64,000 bases of DNA from Chthonomonadales bacterium (GTDB lineage Bacteria; Armatimonadota; Chthonomonadetes; Chthonomonadales; CAJBBX01). Made by a program: the position numbers and the translations under genes. The stretch covers positions 1 through 64,000 of the forward strand of contig DAIDHP010000010.1 of NCBI GenBank assembly GCA_027459625.1. The letters are read 5' to 3'. The notes below the pieces were generated by a model. It did no database searches and had not been told where the DNA came from. It worked only from the letters and a program-made list of their open reading frames with translations. Positions 42,044 to 50,505 of the stretch are shown piece after piece (positions within the stretch are counted from its first letter, which is position 1; every line of letters starts with the position of its first letter).

Positions 42044-42081
42044 ATCTGTCGGATCGGACCGACCGGTCCGATCCGACAGAT
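42044..42081. terminator. Long perfect palindrome after the beta-helix gene
   Basis: The arms ATCTGTCGGATCGGACCG and CGGTCCGATCCGACAGAT are exact 18-bp complements separated by 2 nt. The repeat starts 5 bp after the stop codon and lies 22 bp before the Pho box. It has no U-tract, so it may act as a strong hairpin terminator or roadblock, or it may be a mobile palindrome. Confidence 0.6.
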
Positions 42082-42102
42082 CAGCCTGCCCGACCCATGC
42101 CT

Positions 42103-42161
42103 TTAAACAATATTTAACCCCACCTTAACATTACCTTAAAACTCGCCTGCCACACTATAAC
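42103..42161 (+). promoter_or_regulatory. Pho box (four TTAAm repeats, 11-bp period) and -10 box
   Basis: TTAAA, TTAAC, TTAAC and TTAAA begin at 42103, 42114, 42125 and 42136, exactly one helical turn apart. They are followed by a -10 candidate TATAAC at 42156-42161. This is the arrangement of two tandem PhoB/PhoP-type boxes replacing a -35 element. All genes downstream are phosphate-uptake genes, and the PhoB-type regulator is encoded in the same locus. Confidence 0.85.
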
Positions 42162-42207
42162 CGTTGGCAATTCTGCCATCGCATTATTCTTCAAAAGGAG
42201 GAAAGAG

Positions 42208-43833
42208 ATGAGGCGAATTTCCCAGGCGCTGGTGATGATGGCGTTGCTGCTGACCATCATCGCTTCACCGGGTTGGTCTCAAGTGGCAAGCGATGTTCCC
42301 CCGGGAAACTGGGCGTACAAAGCCGTTGAGGACCTAGCATCGAAAGGTTTGATCAAAGGCTATCCGCCGAACGGGAATTTCTTCGGAAAACGAACCGTAA
42401 CCCGATACGAGATGGCTACGATCATTCAGAGGGTGCTGATACGAGTGGATGAACTGCTGGCGAACAAAGCGGATAAATCGGAGATCAACAACACTCCGAA
42501 ATCCGTGCTGACCCCGGCAGAGGTGGGTGAGATTAGAAAATTGGCTGACCATTACAGGGTGGAATTAACGGTCATCCAGACGGATATGACAAAAGCCCAA
42601 AGCGACATCGCCACATTGCAAACAGAAGTGGAGGGGCTGAAGAGCGCTGTCGCCGCAAACCAGCAAGCGACGGAAAAGAACACCGGGAATATCGCCAACC
42701 TCAGTCATGGGGTGAAAAGCGTCACTGAGACGGAAAAGGAACAAGCCGCCCGTATTACCAAATTGGCGGACACCAAAGTCTCCGCAGGCGACGGTAAAAT
42801 TCAAATCAACGGTGACGAGCAGATTTGGTTCCAAGGTTCGACCCAAAACGATAACGCAAGCCCTTCGGGTGGGTTTCAAGCCAACGGTTTTCGTTTGCGG
42901 CGCATGGAGTTGAAACTAACGGGGCAGATTAACAACCGCTCCTACTGGGATGTCTTATTCGATCTCTCGAAAAGTCTTTCCGGCTCCATCACACGGGATA
43001 AGAACGGCAATCCAACCGGTGTGTCACTGGACGCTACGAAGAATGTGCTTCAGGACATGTTCGTTGGATGGAAGCTCACCCCCAACCTGGCTTTCGAGGT
43101 GGGACAGCAGCATTTGCCGCTGGGTCTGGAGGGACTGACACCCTCGACCCACCTTCTGACGGTGGAGCGCTCCATCATGAACCTGTTGCCAACCAACGAT
43201 GGGCGTTACTCGGATATACGCGACATCGGAGCCCTCATGCGTTACACCAATCCGCAAATCGAGGGGGAGTTGGCGGTTTTTAATGACGGCGGCAACCTGC
43301 AGAATCAAACGGACAATAATAACAGCAAGGAGATTATTTGGCACGGCGTGTACAATGGCCTGCGTTATGTCTCTTTCGGAGCCTCCCAGGTGATTAGCGG
43401 GGGGGTTCAGGTGCCTAACGCACCGCAAACCACGCTGCGTGATCGCCTCGGATTCCAGTTGTCCGCCAAGTACGGTCGAAACCAACTCGAGGCCGAGTAC
43501 GAGCAGGGCAGAGACGGCGGGTTTTTCAACAGCGTCTTCAGTCCCGATATTAAATCGCAGGGCGGCTATGTCACCTACGCATACAAGCTTGCGCCATCCT
43601 GGCAACTTGTGGGTAGAGGGGAATATTGGAACCCGAATCGCGAAGCGCATGGCGTCGATTACGTATCGGAATATGACATGACGCTTGGTTTGAATTACTT
43701 CATCGCCGGACACAATTCGGAGATACAGGCGAACTGGGTCCGCAAGAATATCAACGACCCGAATGGACTGCAAACCAGCGTGCTTGGAGCGGACAGAAAT
43801 CTGTTCCTGATCAATTTCCAGCAAGCGTTTTAA
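42208..43833 (+). CDS. SLH-domain outer-membrane porin of phosphate-selective OprO/OprP type
   Basis: A signal peptide ends near GWSQ. One SLH domain follows (WAYKAVEDLASKGLIKGYPP, TRYEMATIIQRVL), then a helical coiled-coil linker (about residues 95-190), then a beta-barrel of OprO/OprP-like sequence (FRLRRMELKLTGQINNRSYW, GLEGLTPSTHLLTVERSIM) ending in a terminal phenylalanine (NFQQAF), as outer-membrane barrels do. The SLH domain would tether the outer membrane to the cell wall. The Pho box upstream and pstS downstream indicate phosphate or polyphosphate uptake. AAAAGGAGG precedes the ATG. Confidence 0.88.
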   Translation: MRRISQALVMMALLLTIIASPGWSQVASDVPPGNWAYKAVEDLASKGLIKGYPPNGNFFGKRTVTRYEMATIIQRVLIRVDELLANKADKSEINNTPKSVLTPAEVGEIRKLADHYRVELTVIQTDMTKAQSDIATLQTEVEGLKSAVAANQQATEKNTGNIANLSHGVKSVTETEKEQAARITKLADTKVSAGDGKIQINGDEQIWFQGSTQNDNASPSGGFQANGFRLRRMELKLTGQINNRSYWDVLFDLSKSLSGSITRDKNGNPTGVSLDATKNVLQDMFVGWKLTPNLAFEVGQQHLPLGLEGLTPSTHLLTVERSIMNLLPTNDGRYSDIRDIGALMRYTNPQIEGELAVFNDGGNLQNQTDNNNSKEIIWHGVYNGLRYVSFGASQVISGGVQVPNAPQTTLRDRLGFQLSAKYGRNQLEAEYEQGRDGGFFNSVFSPDIKSQGGYVTYAYKLAPSWQLVGRGEYWNPNREAHGVDYVSEYDMTLGLNYFIAGHNSEIQANWVRKNINDPNGLQTSVLGADRNLFLINFQQAF

Positions 43834-43886: not shown

Positions 43887-44927
43887 ATGACACTTCGTAA
43901 ACTGTTAATGAAAGGATCTATCATTGTTTTAGCCATCGCGCTCTCGATGAGTATGAAAAGCGCGAACGCTCAGGCGTTGAACGTGGCTGGATCAACCTTT
44001 GTGTATCCCATAATGAACAAATGGATACAGAGATATCATGAACTCCATCCCGGCGTATCCATAAATTACCAGGCAATCGGATCGGGAGCCGGCATTGCTC
44101 AATACAAATCCGGAACGGTGGATTTTGGCGCGAGTGACGTTCCGCTCACCAACAAGGAGTTGGGCACCATGCCTCGCCCCACACTCAATATCCTGGATGT
44201 GTCGGGCGCCATCGTGCTGTGCTATAACGTACGAGGAATTGGCCCCGGCCTTCATATTTCGGGACCGGTGATCGCGGATATCTATTTGGGCAAGATCACC
44301 AAATGGAACGATCCCGCAATCAAAAAATTGAACCCGTATCTCAATTTGCCTGATGAGCCAATCCGTGTGATGCACCGCTCCGACGCTTCCGGAACGTCTT
44401 ATATTTTCACAAGTTATCTCGCATCCGTAAGCAAGGCTTGGAAAGACGGTCCCGGAGTTGGAAAAAGCCCCAACTGGCCGGTGGGAATCGGTGCGCAGGG
44501 GAACCCCGGGGTTGCCGGGTTGATTCACCACGCCCAAGGTTCGTTCGGTTACATCGAATTGGCTTATGCTCTGCAAAATCATATGCCCGCCGCTGTCGTG
44601 GAGAATCGAAGCGGTAACTTCGTCGCCGCAAGCATTCAATCCACCGCGTTCGCAGTGAATAGCGCTGTAAGGAAGATGGAGAAGGATATTCGTGTGAGCA
44701 TCGTGAATGGACCCGGTGTGAACACCTATCCCATTTGCGGGTTCAGCTATCTCATCGTTCCGAAATACCCGACCAACGTTACGCATGGAAGGGCTATGTT
44801 GAATTTTCTAAAATGGACTATGACCGATGAGGCGCAGCGGATGGCGGCGGACCTGCTATACGCTCCTTTGCCTGAATCAATCCGGAAAATTAATTTGAGA
44901 GCCATTGACAGCATTAAGGTGCGTTAG
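43887..44927 (+). CDS. pstS: Phosphate ABC transporter substrate-binding protein PstS
   Basis: A signal peptide ends at SANA-QA and is followed by the PstS core: LNVAGSTFVYPIMNKW, AIGSGAGIAQYKSGTVDFGASDVPL and the phosphate-contacting RSDASGTSYIF. The length of 346 aa is normal. There is no lipobox, so it is a soluble periplasmic protein. AAGGAGACAAGGATA lies before the ATG. It delivers phosphate to the fused PstC-PstA permease encoded next. Confidence 0.95.
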   Translation: MTLRKLLMKGSIIVLAIALSMSMKSANAQALNVAGSTFVYPIMNKWIQRYHELHPGVSINYQAIGSGAGIAQYKSGTVDFGASDVPLTNKELGTMPRPTLNILDVSGAIVLCYNVRGIGPGLHISGPVIADIYLGKITKWNDPAIKKLNPYLNLPDEPIRVMHRSDASGTSYIFTSYLASVSKAWKDGPGVGKSPNWPVGIGAQGNPGVAGLIHHAQGSFGYIELAYALQNHMPAAVVENRSGNFVAASIQSTAFAVNSAVRKMEKDIRVSIVNGPGVNTYPICGFSYLIVPKYPTNVTHGRAMLNFLKWTMTDEAQRMAADLLYAPLPESIRKINLRAIDSIKVR

Positions 44928-44967: not shown

Positions 44968-45182
44968 TCACCATTGTATTGGGGTATTATTAAAATGGAG
45001 AATAATGGCGTTTTTAATATAATGGCGATAAACGATGCTATATTGTGGAATTGCTCGCTTCCGTTTCATGGCAAATTGAGGACGAGTAACAATGCCGTTT
45101 TCATCGTGAATTTTACAATGAATTCGTCAAGCGCATTGGTTGACGAATGTTTCCGTTATCTCCAATAAGGATACAAGTCTCA

Positions 45183-47216
45183 GTGATTGAACAAAACAGT
45201 AATCAGAACCCAGTTACGCAAAATCTTCCAAAGCCGCTCAAAACCGCTGGATTCGCTGAATTCGGAGATTCTCTGTTTCGAGTGATCTCCACCCTTTTTG
45301 CATTGTCCTCTCTGTTTCTTATTGGATGGATAGGTGTCATCCTCTATCAGCAATCGGCTCTCACCCGTCATCTTTTTGGTTGGAGCATTCTGACAGGTCG
45401 GACTTGGGACACCCTTCATCATGTCATTGGCGCTTTGCCTTTTATTTACGGCACGTTTGTCAGTTCCACCATCGCTCTTATTCTGGCGGTACCGATCGGC
45501 ATATGCGCTGCGATATTTCTATCCGAGTTGGCACCTGCCTGGCTTGCAAGCCCTTTGTCGTTTCTAATTGAGTTGCTTGCGGCGATACCCAGTGTCATTT
45601 ACGGGCTATGGGGCGTTTTATTCCTTTGTCCGTGGTTAAACAACAACGTTTATCAATGGTTGAATAATAACTTCGGCAATATCCCTCTCTTCTCCAATTA
45701 TGGTGGTTATCCTTCCACAATGCTCGCTGCGGGAATCATCCTCGCCATCATGATTTTGCCTTTTATAACCTCCGTTTCCCGCGAAGTAATTCGCAGCGTC
45801 TCTCAGGCGCAGCGCGAAGCGGCGTTGGGGCTTGGAGCCACCCGCTGGGAGATGATCCGCAATGTCGTTTTGAAAGCCGCAAAATCTGGGATCACCGGTG
45901 CGGTGATACTTGCATTGGGAAGGGCCATAGGGGAAACCATGGCGGTGGTGATGGTGATTGGAAACAACACCATGATGTCCGCCTCCCTGTTGCAGCCCGG
46001 ATATACGATGCCGGCTTTGCTCGCCAACGAGTTCAATGAGGCGTGGACGAGCAAACTGCACACCTCCGCCCTCCTTGAGATTGCATTCATTCTGTTTGTC
46101 ATCACCTTCATCATAAACGCTTTGGCGAGAATTCTCATTCTCCTTACTTCTCGAAACTCGAATTACGCATCCGCGGAGCCCGGGAAAGCTGCGGCGATGG
46201 ATACTCTGCGCGATATCCTTGCCAAATTCGGGAGATGGCTCATGATCGTTGTCATCATCGGATTTGTCGCTTGGCAAATCATTGGGGATTTGCGATCGGA
46301 ATCGTTCAGGGGGTTGCTTCATCCAACAGAAATCATCGTTTACCTCTATCTCGCCACCCGATTTGTCACGCGCATCACAAGGGGCACTGGGAATTGGAAG
46401 AGATGGCGTAAGATTAACAACGGTTTCGTGCAGATATTACTGGGATTGTGCACTTTTCTGGCTTGTTTTATTCTCGCAATCTTACTATATGTCGTGGCGG
46501 TTCAGGGAATACAATACCTTCATCCCTCCATCTTCATCCATGACGAATTGGACGGAGGAATGAGCAATGGGATCATCGGGACTTTGGTTTTGGTGGGTAT
46601 CGCTTCCGCAATCGGAATTCCGCTTGGATTAATTGGCGGGATATATCTTTCGGAATACGGTGCGGGGCGATTTGGTAATGTGTTACGTTTCTCGGCTGAT
46701 GTGTTGAATGGAATCCCTTCGGTGGTGATAGGAATGTTCGTGTATGCAGCGGTGGTCCTTAAAACCAATCATTTCTCCGCAATGGCTGGAGGATTGGCGC
46801 TTGGGATCATGATGATCCCGACAATTGTGCGCACGACTGAGGAGATATTGCGACTAACTCCGTATTCACTAAGGGAGGGGTCCTTGGGGTTAGGTGCGAC
46901 CAAGTTTCGCACGATAAGAAGCATTATCGTTCCCGCCGCCAAAGGCGGCATTGTAACCGGCGTCATGCTCGCTCTCGCCAGAGTGATCGGGGAGACGGCG
47001 CCCTTGCTGTTCACAGCGTTTGGAAACGAGATGGTTACCTACAAGCTGAATTCGCAGATATCCTCGCTGACCATGCTTATTTATCGATTCGCCATGGATT
47101 CCGACGTCACGAAGAATGGAATGGCTTGGACGGGATCGCTCATATTAATTACCATAGTGCTTGTTATAAGTTTGCTGGCGCGATTGTTTTCACGTTCGCG
47201 TTATTCGATGCACTGA
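45183..47216 (+). CDS. pstCA: PstC-PstA fused phosphate ABC permease
   Basis: One reading frame encodes both permease subunits. The PstC half (to about residue 320) has ATP-binding-partner loop REAALGLGATRWEMIRNVVL; after a linker with two extra hydrophobic segments, the PstA half (from about 405) has REGSLGLGATKFRTIRSIIV. Each half carries about six transmembrane helices and a GETM/GETA motif. The product imports phosphate with PstS and PstB. ORF start 45147 has no ribosome-binding site; I prefer GTG 45183 behind AAGGA (677 aa). No stop or frameshift separates the halves. Confidence 0.92.
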   Translation: MIEQNSNQNPVTQNLPKPLKTAGFAEFGDSLFRVISTLFALSSLFLIGWIGVILYQQSALTRHLFGWSILTGRTWDTLHHVIGALPFIYGTFVSSTIALILAVPIGICAAIFLSELAPAWLASPLSFLIELLAAIPSVIYGLWGVLFLCPWLNNNVYQWLNNNFGNIPLFSNYGGYPSTMLAAGIILAIMILPFITSVSREVIRSVSQAQREAALGLGATRWEMIRNVVLKAAKSGITGAVILALGRAIGETMAVVMVIGNNTMMSASLLQPGYTMPALLANEFNEAWTSKLHTSALLEIAFILFVITFIINALARILILLTSRNSNYASAEPGKAAAMDTLRDILAKFGRWLMIVVIIGFVAWQIIGDLRSESFRGLLHPTEIIVYLYLATRFVTRITRGTGNWKRWRKINNGFVQILLGLCTFLACFILAILLYVVAVQGIQYLHPSIFIHDELDGGMSNGIIGTLVLVGIASAIGIPLGLIGGIYLSEYGAGRFGNVLRFSADVLNGIPSVVIGMFVYAAVVLKTNHFSAMAGGLALGIMMIPTIVRTTEEILRLTPYSLREGSLGLGATKFRTIRSIIVPAAKGGIVTGVMLALARVIGETAPLLFTAFGNEMVTYKLNSQISSLTMLIYRFAMDSDVTKNGMAWTGSLILITIVLVISLLARLFSRSRYSMH

Positions 47217-47239
47217 CGGGTGAGAAAAAGGAGAATGCA

Positions 47240-47563
47240 ATGATTTCGAGAAAATGGTTTGGTTTGATAGCGGTTTTGGGAGCGTTCGCTCTGGCTGGAT
47301 GCAGTTCCGGAAACGGCGGACAGGGGAACGGCCCCGCGCCGACCACCGACACGGTCAAAATGATTCAGGAGAAGATTAACGCTGATCCCAAGCTTCAAGG
47401 AGCGAAAATCAAGGTGTCCGTAACAAATGGCATGCTCAATTTCGATGGAACCGTGAAGAGTGTCGATCAGAAGCAGCAAGCGGAAAACGATGCGATGAAC
47501 ATCCAGTCACAGCAAAAAATGGCAATGGGCGTGAATGATAATTTATTGGTCGAAGGAAAGTAG
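47240..47563 (+). CDS. BON-domain lipoprotein in the pst operon
   Basis: A lipoprotein signal ends in LAGC (Cys21), and a single BON-like domain follows (MIQEKINADPKLQGAKIKVSVTNG in pieces: IQEKINADPKLQGAKIKVS, GMLNFDGTVKSVDQKQQAEN). BON domains bind membranes or carbohydrate and occur in envelope-integrity proteins. The long ORF begins at 47126 inside pstCA, but AAGGAG lies 6 nt before the ATG at 47240 (107 aa). Its place between the permease and pstB points to a role in the phosphate-starved envelope, with no known function. Confidence 0.85.
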   Translation: MISRKWFGLIAVLGAFALAGCSSGNGGQGNGPAPTTDTVKMIQEKINADPKLQGAKIKVSVTNGMLNFDGTVKSVDQKQQAENDAMNIQSQQKMAMGVNDNLLVEGK

Positions 47564-47584: not shown

Positions 47585-48406
47585 TTGGACGCAATCATAG
47601 ATACACCTCCCGCCAAGACGGCATGCGAGAAAAGCATGAGTGAACAGGGACAGACAATACGGCTTGCGACTCGAAATCTCAATTTTTTCTACGGTCGCAC
47701 GCAAGCGTTGTTCAACATTAATATAAACATCCCGGAAAAAAGCGTCACGGCGCTCATAGGCCCTTCGGGGTGCGGGAAATCGACGTTCCTCCGGTGTTTC
47801 AATCGGATGAATGACGAAATCCCGGGAACCCGCCTTCAAGGCACGGTGCTGTTTGACAATCAGGATTTATACGTTCGGGGAATTAGCCTGGTTGACCTGC
47901 GCAAACGCATCGGCATGGTGTTTCAACGCGCCAATCCTTTCGCGATGTCCATTTTCGATAACGTGGCTTACGGACCACGCATCCACGGGGAGAATAACCG
48001 GTATAAGATTCAGGAGATCGTCGAGCGAAGTCTTGTTCGAGCGGCGCTGTGGGATGAGGTGAAGGATAATCTAAAAAAATCCGCGTTGGATCTGTCAGGC
48101 GGGCAACAACAGAGGCTGTGTATTGCAAGAGTGCTTGCGGTGGAACCCGAAGTGATCTTGATGGACGAGCCATGCTCCGCGTTGGATCCAAACTCCACTT
48201 TTTGCATCGAGGAATTGATGCAGGATCTTAAAAAAACCTATTCCATTGTAATCGTGACGCATAACATGCAGCAAGCCGCGCGCGTTTCGGATAATACGGG
48301 GTTTTTCCTTAAAGGGGAATTAATCGAAATAGACAAAACCGAAAAAATATTCCAAGGGCCGGAGGATCAGCGAACCGAAGATTATATCCGAGGGCGGTTT
48401 GGTTGA
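47585..48406 (+). CDS. pstB: Phosphate ABC transporter ATP-binding protein PstB
   Basis: Walker [10 protein letters not shown], signature [18 protein letters not shown], Walker [14 protein letters not shown] and the switch histidine in [13 protein letters not shown] are all present, and [22 protein letters not shown] is specific for PstB. The start is a TTG behind GAGGG; an ATG 17 codons in is an alternative. It lies 22 bp after the BON lipoprotein gene. It energises the fused permease. The phoU gene that often follows pstB is absent. Confidence 0.95.
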
Positions 48407-48559: not shown

Positions 48560-49243
48560 GTGAAGGTTTTAGTTGTTGATGATGAGATTCCCATATTGGA
48601 TGCGGTTGCGTATAATTTGCGCAAGGAGGGGTTCCAACCCTTGACAGCTGAAGATGCGGAGCAGTGCATGCGATTGGCAAAATCCGAAAAGCCGGAGCTA
48701 ATCATTCTGGATGTAATGCTTCCATCCGCCAGCGGCTTCGACATCTGCAAACGCATACGCTCGGAAAGTCACACCCCCATCATTATGCTCACCGCGCGAG
48801 CGGACGAAACGGACAGGGTGGTGGGTTTGGAGCTTGGCGCCGACGATTACGTCACGAAACCATTCAGCATGAGGGAATTGATGGCGCGGGTGAAGACGGT
48901 TCTCCGTCGGAGCAATGCTATCACTGGAAATATCGAAGAGGTGATTGATATCGGGGGAATCCATATCGATTCCAATCGATACGAAGTCAGCGTGAATGGA
49001 AATCCCGTAAGCCTTTCCCCGAAGGAGTTTGACCTTTTGAAGTTCCTTGCCCGTCATCCCGGTCAGGTTTTCACCCGTCAATCCTTGCTTGACAGCGTAT
49101 GGGGGCCTGCTGCGTTCGTGGAGGATAGAACCGTGGATGTGCATATACGATGGCTGCGGGAGAAAATTGAAGCGGATCCCTCGCAACCCCGGCATCTGAT
49201 GACGGTTCGAGGCATAGGATACAAGTTTTGCGACGAGATGTGA
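48560..49243 (+). CDS. phoB: PhoB/PhoP-type response regulator
   Basis: A receiver domain with acidic pocket VVDDE, phosphoacceptor Asp in LIILDVMLP and the switch lysine in YVTKPFS is followed by an OmpR-type winged helix (SLSPKEFDLLKFLARHPGQVFTR split as LSPKEFDLLKFLARHPG, VDVHIRWLREKIE). Its location between pstB and a PhoR-like kinase identifies it as the phosphate regulator, presumably binding the four-repeat box upstream of the porin. The start is a GTG at 48560. Confidence 0.9.
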   Translation: MKVLVVDDEIPILDAVAYNLRKEGFQPLTAEDAEQCMRLAKSEKPELIILDVMLPSASGFDICKRIRSESHTPIIMLTARADETDRVVGLELGADDYVTKPFSMRELMARVKTVLRRSNAITGNIEEVIDIGGIHIDSNRYEVSVNGNPVSLSPKEFDLLKFLARHPGQVFTRQSLLDSVWGPAAFVEDRTVDVHIRWLREKIEADPSQPRHLMTVRGIGYKFCDEM

Positions 49244-49392: not shown

Positions 49393-50505
49393 TTGCTAAT
49401 CAGAAATCATTTAAACCACGTCTCATCGAACGAAACTCAAGCGGAAGCCACCGATACGGTTCGTTATGAATACCAAGCTCTTTTGGATTTAAGCGATTCC
49501 GGCATTATGGTCCTTGATCGCGATGGTGTGATAATACGCGCCAACGCACTTGCCGGCAAACTATTGGGAGTTTCCACCAATACGCCTGTAGGACACACTC
49601 TTTTGGAGGTGACTCTGTCTCAATCCCTTCATAAGATTGCGCTCGCCTCCCGCGAGGAGAGCAGTACATTGTTCCTGGAGACCCGAATCCCGGAACCCGA
49701 TGGCAAGGTGCTTGCTGTGAAAATCTCCCCCATCCCGATCGATTCCGTGCCTTCGGACATGCTCTTAATCGTGGCGCGCAATGTAACCGACCTAAGAAGA
49801 CTGGAAACCATTCGAAGGGATTTTGTTGCGAACGTATCGCACGAACTTCGTACTCCTCTCGCCTCCATTCGGGCGATGGCGGAGACATTACAGCAGGGCG
49901 CGTTGGAGGATACTCAGGTGGCGTCCAAGTTTCTTGACACCATCATCAACGAATCTCAGCGTCTTGCTCGAATTTCGGAAGACTTGCTGATTCTATCTCA
50001 AGCGGAATCCCGCGCCCCGACGAAGGAACCTTTCGATATGGCTAAACTTTTGCGCAAGGTCGTGCAAAGGTTTCAACCGCAAGCCGATCGGTCAGGCATC
50101 AATCTGTCTTTGGATTGTCCGGCTCCCTTGCAAGCCTTCGGTAGTCAGGATCAGATCGAACAGGTAATTGTCAATCTTATTGATAACGCTCTGAAGTACA
50201 CGAGCGAGGGGGGGGAGGTGCAGGTGTCAGGCGGGATGCAGGAGGATGGAATTAATGTTTGCGTTCGCGATACCGGCATCGGAATCATGAGTAAGGACCT
50301 TCCCAGGCTTTTTGAGCGTTTTTATCGGGTGGACAAGGCGCGTTCTCGCAGTTCGGGCGGCACTGGGCTTGGTCTGTCCATCGTGAAGCACATCGTCGAA
50401 GCGCATGGAGGCAAGGTGACAGTGGACAGCGAATACAACCACGGATCCATATTCTCCTTCACGCTTCCCAACGAAAGAGACAAAAGTGCAAACAAGGAGG
50501 GATAG
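49393..50505 (+). CDS. phoR: PhoR-type PAS sensor histidine kinase lacking membrane helices
   Basis: The order is PAS domain (about residues 25-135), HisKA with phosphoacceptor His150 in VANVSHELRTPLASI, then HATPase with NLIDNALKYTSEGG, DTGIGI and GGTGLGLSIV. Typical PhoR kinases begin with one or two transmembrane segments, and none is visible here. A stop codon lies just before the TTG start, so the protein seems genuinely soluble unless a frameshift hides a longer form in 49244-49392. It would phosphorylate the adjacent PhoB-type regulator. Confidence 0.88.
   Translation: MLIRNHLNHVSSNETQAEATDTVRYEYQALLDLSDSGIMVLDRDGVIIRANALAGKLLGVSTNTPVGHTLLEVTLSQSLHKIALASREESSTLFLETRIPEPDGKVLAVKISPIPIDSVPSDMLLIVARNVTDLRRLETIRRDFVANVSHELRTPLASIRAMAETLQQGALEDTQVASKFLDTIINESQRLARISEDLLILSQAESRAPTKEPFDMAKLLRKVVQRFQPQADRSGINLSLDCPAPLQAFGSQDQIEQVIVNLIDNALKYTSEGGEVQVSGGMQEDGINVCVRDTGIGIMSKDLPRLFERFYRVDKARSRSSGGTGLGLSIVKHIVEAHGGKVTVDSEYNHGSIFSFTLPNERDKSANKEG

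Follow-up and report, generated by a model that had tools for sequence, protein, structure and literature searches.

At class II promoters PhoB lies over the -35 region and recruits sigma-70, and the PhoP box of Bacillus subtilis is made of TTAACA-like hexamers with a period of about 11 bp, four per core site. A literature search on the four-repeat core of B. subtilis returned nothing relevant. The cyanobacterial Pho box consists of at least three 8-bp repeats of CTTAACCT separated by 3-bp linkers (PMC1906773), and in Synechocystis the mutation of any of the three TTAA repeats reduces or abolishes PhoB binding (PMC11126600). The operators of pitH2 and glpQ1 in Streptomyces contain four PhoP repeat units, as established by footprinting (PMC7866108). 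The PHO box of Escherichia coli is positioned 10 bp upstream of the -10 element (PMC1906773).

The window, i.e. the whole stretch of 64,000 nucleotides analysed here, contains four TTAAM pentamers starting at 42103, 42114, 42125 and 42136, thus with a period of exactly 11 bp, and reads CTTTAAACAATATTTAACCCCACCTTAACATTACCTTAAAACTCGCCTGCCACACTATAACC across the array. The sequence agrees with the initial annotation in these positions and in the presence of TATAAC downstream; the gene that follows, described there as an SLH-porin, indeed carries SLH and Porin_O_P domain matches. The features of the locus are given below, the four repeats being assigned from the sequence, the pattern count and the comparison with relatives.

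42102-42109, plus strand: putative Pho box repeat 1, TTTAAACA, with the pentamer TTAAA at 42103
42113-42120, plus strand: putative Pho box repeat 2, TTTAACCC, with the pentamer at 42114
42124-42131, plus strand: putative Pho box repeat 3, CTTAACAT, with the pentamer at 42125
42135-42142, plus strand: putative Pho box repeat 4, CTTAAAAC, located in the -35 region, with the pentamer at 42136
42151-42156, plus strand: CACACT, the predicted -10 element, occupying the slot that is conserved 10 bp beyond the last pentamer (positional enrichment in relatives)
42156-42161, plus strand: TATAAC, 15 bp after the last pentamer and outside the conserved register (window sequence and sister genome G001)
42196-42203, plus strand: Shine-Dalgarno-like AAAGGAGG before the porin ATG (sequence)
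42208-43833, plus strand: SLH-domain Porin_O_P outer-membrane porin (PF00395, PF07396)
43887-44927, plus strand: PstS-like phosphate-binding protein (PF12849)
45147-47216, plus strand: PstC-PstA permease, a single fused protein of 689 aa (BPD_transp_1, two stretches)
47126-47563, plus strand: BON-domain protein (PF04972)
47585-48406, plus strand: PstB ATPase (PF00005)
48560-49243, plus strand: PhoB-type response regulator with recognition helix VEDRTVDVHIRWLR (domain match and recognition-helix comparison)
49393-50505, plus strand: PhoR-type PAS histidine kinase (domain match and check of the upstream reading frame)

Similarity to the B. subtilis box resides in the TTAACA-like 11-bp repeats, although the host there is a low-GC Gram-positive bacterium, unlike here. 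The array shares with the cyanobacterial SphR/PhoB box (Synechocystis PCC 6803; PMC1906773, PMC11126600) the 11-bp period, the TTAA core, the presence of at least three copies and the position ahead of pst and other phosphate genes, with a PhoB-family regulator in both. In the window, 8-bp repeats resembling CTTAACCT follow one another in at least three tandem copies, joined by linkers of 3 bp; arrays stand upstream of phosphate-acquisition genes both in the window and in relatives, and a PhoB-family regulator carrying the PhoB recognition helix is encoded in the genome. The differences are the phylum, the modal number of four repeats and a predicted regulon that extends to DUF1559 pseudopilins. 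The Streptomyces PhoP operators (pitH2, glpQ1; PMC7866108) have 11-nt direct repeats in common with the array, at least four per operator, and their staged occupancy, with units overlapping the -35, may also be taken as a likeness; their core, however, is GTTCACC compared with CTTAAC here. The E. coli PHO box (PMC4415409, PMC1906773) likewise has 11-bp units placed about 10 bp upstream of the -10 and a regulator with the same recognition-helix residues, but its core bases differ and a single box comprises two repeat units. Core repeats of the E. coli type, CTGTCAT, are absent from the array, the cores of the window being TTAAA and TTAAC.

The pattern TTAAM-N6-TTAAM is matched four times in the window, compared with 0.18 matches expected from shuffles, and all four matches belong to this array, one of them being its reverse-strand reading. 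The genome search with TTAAM(N6)TTAAM proposed in the initial annotation gave a divided outcome across the 4.55 Mb genome: the pair alone was not enriched (27 matches versus 33 for the reversed-pattern controls), whereas an exact triple repeat occurs in the window array only. Own-genome matches with two or three mismatches were mostly due to chance, since the reversed controls outnumbered them, and only the site at C5:108158 stood out. As the pairs match the reversed control in this genome, the signal lies only in arrays of at least three repeats; arrays of this length arose in 5 of 200,000 first-order Markov sequences with the composition of the array's own intergenic region. The interval that separates the array from the preceding gene contains, at 42044-42081, a perfect inverted repeat whose arms are 16 bp long (ATCTGTCGGATCGGAC / GTCCGATCCGACAGAT); it lacks a T-tract and is possibly an insulator or a terminator. 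A rearranged version is found in the sister genome G001.

In G001, whose porin is 81% identical, the array is kept with one mismatch over about 43 bp, and the adjoining hairpin region on its 5' side has diverged. Arrays of three to five repeats precede the SLH-porin or pstS in many relatives belonging to other genera and families, and further arrays are situated ahead of genes for PhoU, PhoX, phytase and the PHO4 transporter; some pstS genes of relatives have no array of at least three repeats within reach. Upstream of 30 pstS/porin loci, which were collected via protein homology and therefore selected independently of the motif, the TTAA-TTAA spacing is 11 bp in 45 pairs, 22 bp in 27 and 33 bp in 15, every other spacing being represented by at most three pairs. 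Among 31 genomes of the order, roughly 200 three-repeat arrays were found against 4 reversed controls and 43 four-repeat arrays against none; the 39 distinct four-repeat arrays that were examined all lie between genes. A functionless repeat that arose by chance in an AT-rich intergenic region could accommodate the TTAAM pair being no commoner than its reversed control, but it leaves unexplained four repeats in a row that are unique in the genome, a position and register kept in relatives, and the count of four-repeat arrays; its probability is practically negligible. Plain AT-richness was ruled out by the specificity of the 11-bp spacing in the 30 loci together with the reversed controls.

The unit consensus is (C/T)TTAA(C/T)(A/C)(T/C), corresponding to an operator model of YTTAAY plus five bases. 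A second class of 11-bp arrays, reading TTTAAT/TTTAAG in the gene sense, e.g. TTTAATCTCCGTTTAATCTCTCTTTAAG, was seen at L207, L208, L210, L211, L216, L218 and L219; a TA-rich hexamer often follows about 10 bp downstream, the genes encode DUF1559, cytochrome c-like and other proteins, and these arrays possibly serve a related regulator. Small DinB-superfamily or DUF1572-like proteins are encoded downstream of arrays in three genomes (L178, L149, L212).

The initial annotation regarded four repeats as double the length of known boxes of two to three, which may allow cooperative or graded activation, and noted TATAAC downstream. The corresponding rival reading is an unusually long box whose length gives special activation of this kind, with TATAAC as the -10. 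Four repeats and a downstream TATAAC are present, and G001 has TATAAT at the same position. However, among 18 arrays ahead of phosphate genes three repeats occur in 5, four in 10 and five in 3, so that four is the modal number, and the footprinted Streptomyces operators (PMC7866108) already offer examples with four units. Taken together, four repeats are ordinary, and the claim of a double-length box does not hold. Cooperative or graded activation by the array is possible and would be ordinary for such operators. An array of a relative with six repeats (L174, G003:C49:14242-14301) contains a duplicated 22-bp unit, with AGGGATTTAAACATCTCTTAAT present twice, which suggests that arrays may grow via tandem duplication.

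The placement of the -10 bears on the same proposal. When 78 arrays were aligned on their last repeat, a hexamer carrying A in its second and T in its sixth position began exactly 10 bp after the pentamer in 44, and no other hexamer offset exceeded 16, even though some wrong-strand rows in the alignment diluted the signal. The consensus of this slot is YAKAMT in the 18 phosphate-gene arrays, 15 of which have both A2 and T6. The corresponding hexamer of the window, CACACT, is a weak -10, but as judged from its register it is probably the -10 of the array promoter. TATAAC is 5 bp off the register kept by relatives and has C at position 6; it was rejected as the main -10 on account of the register and may be an alternative -10. 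An unusually long box with TATAAC as its -10 is thus unlikely. The short array-to--10 distance is fixed at 10 bp, which points to the geometry of class II PhoB promoters.

The regulator encoded within the locus shows the recognition-helix sequence of E. coli PhoB, VEDRTVDVHIR (VEDRTVDVHIRWLR in the window protein and VEDRTVDVHIRRLR in that of E. coli), and this helix is conserved across the family. The arrays of relatives, the spacing, the helix and the consensus all agree with a PhoB-type operator ahead of the SLH-porin and the phosphate locus, as had been predicted, and it is very probable that the array at 42102-42142 is a TTAA-type PhoB operator that switches on the porin and pst genes at low phosphate. 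Phosphorylated PhoB, probably the product of phoB at 48560-49243, would bind the four 11-bp direct repeats head to tail; with the last repeat located within the -35 region and followed 10 bp further on by CACACT, PhoB would replace the -35 element and under low phosphate recruit sigma-70 RNA polymerase, thereby turning on the porin together with the pst genes that follow it. It is plausible that the array drives the entire phosphate locus, with the reservation that the 220 bp between 44927 and 45147 and the 154 bp between 48406 and 48560 could leave room for separate promoters. The listed start of the BON-domain reading frame, 47126, overlaps the end of pstCA, and the real start is probably further inside. 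The PhoR-type kinase begins directly with its PAS domain, and the reading frame upstream of 49393 contains stop codons and no membrane segment; the kinase therefore looks soluble, which distinguishes it from E. coli PhoR. In relatives, phoB-type genes are found divergent beside the SLH-porin or beside an array (L084/L053 in G010, L085/L052 in G008, L090 in G002), an arrangement that suggests autoregulation of phoB.

The largest class of four-repeat arrays in the order, 22 of 39, precedes genes for DUF1559 (PF07596) pseudopilins, 21 coming from the array survey and one (G003:C9) from the placement of its DUF1559 gene by a genome-wide DUF1559 listing; in other families of the phylum the share is 18 of 35. 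The DUF1559 assignments at four-repeat arrays rest on an N-terminal methylation motif of the FTLIELLVV type, with Pfam or genome HMM confirmation for some. Eight genomes encode 42-58 DUF1559 genes each, which amounts to about 1-2% of genes if roughly 0.9 gene per kb is assumed, and the probability of the excess by chance is below 1e-20 even at 2%, arrays of one genome not being fully independent. The planctomycete Rhodopirellula baltica has 74 DUF1559 genes (PMC2754498). The second array of the genome studied here (C5:108158-108195, L031), with three exact TTAA cores and one degenerate copy, is also located ahead of a DUF1559 gene and is followed by TATAAT at exactly 10 bp. Fifteen orthologs of this gene in the order, fetched by protein, have at least 49% identity and come from three families; upstream of them, in arrays of two to six repeats, 20 TTAA pairs were counted at 11 bp, 15 at 22 bp, 6 at 33 bp and 7 at 32 bp; more distant copies of the protein are mostly without an 11-bp array. 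Array-bearing DUF1559 loci in relatives, spread over at least three families of the order and over other families of the phylum, include L302-L316, L161-L200 and L261-L299. In genome G015, 3 out of at least 46 DUF1559 genes have an array.

The prevalence of DUF1559 genes over phosphate genes behind four-repeat arrays could indicate that another OmpR-family regulator binds the TTAA arrays and controls surface genes (porins and pseudopilins), the phosphate genes being part of its regulon; the genome codes for five strong OmpR-family DNA-binding domains, so such a regulator could bind the array. Against it, arrays precede pstS, the pst-linked porin, and the PhoU, PhoX, phytase and PHO4 genes, the window has phoB within the locus that the array precedes, and the consensus equals that of the cyanobacterial PhoB/SphR box. 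The unit consensus is moreover identical at DUF1559 and phosphate-gene arrays (one array being listed twice in this comparison), which makes one regulator the simplest reading. Control by another OmpR-family protein is accordingly rated very unlikely, and PhoB would be the regulator at the DUF1559 genes as well. It is reasonably probable that the Pho regulon throughout this phylum, which judging by gene content is probably Armatimonadota, holds a large set of DUF1559 genes, such that phosphate starvation would switch on many alternative surface or secretion pilin-like proteins. A literature search on DUF1559 together with phosphate returned nothing relevant, and the predicted phosphate-responsive DUF1559 set appears to be new.

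As far as sequence comparison can tell, the reading of the array as a real, conserved Pho box of known type is functionally well supported, and it would represent a textbook element in a little-studied phylum. The motif of YTTAAY repeats at 11 bp, followed after 10 bp by a -10, is searchable and yields almost no chance matches, so that Pho regulons may be read from the genomes of mostly uncultured bacteria. The part worth following is the wider regulon, since the strongest association of the arrays is with DUF1559 and not with phosphate genes. If true, it would provide the first regulatory context for the widely expanded DUF1559 family, and the link to phosphate would make the function of these proteins directly testable.
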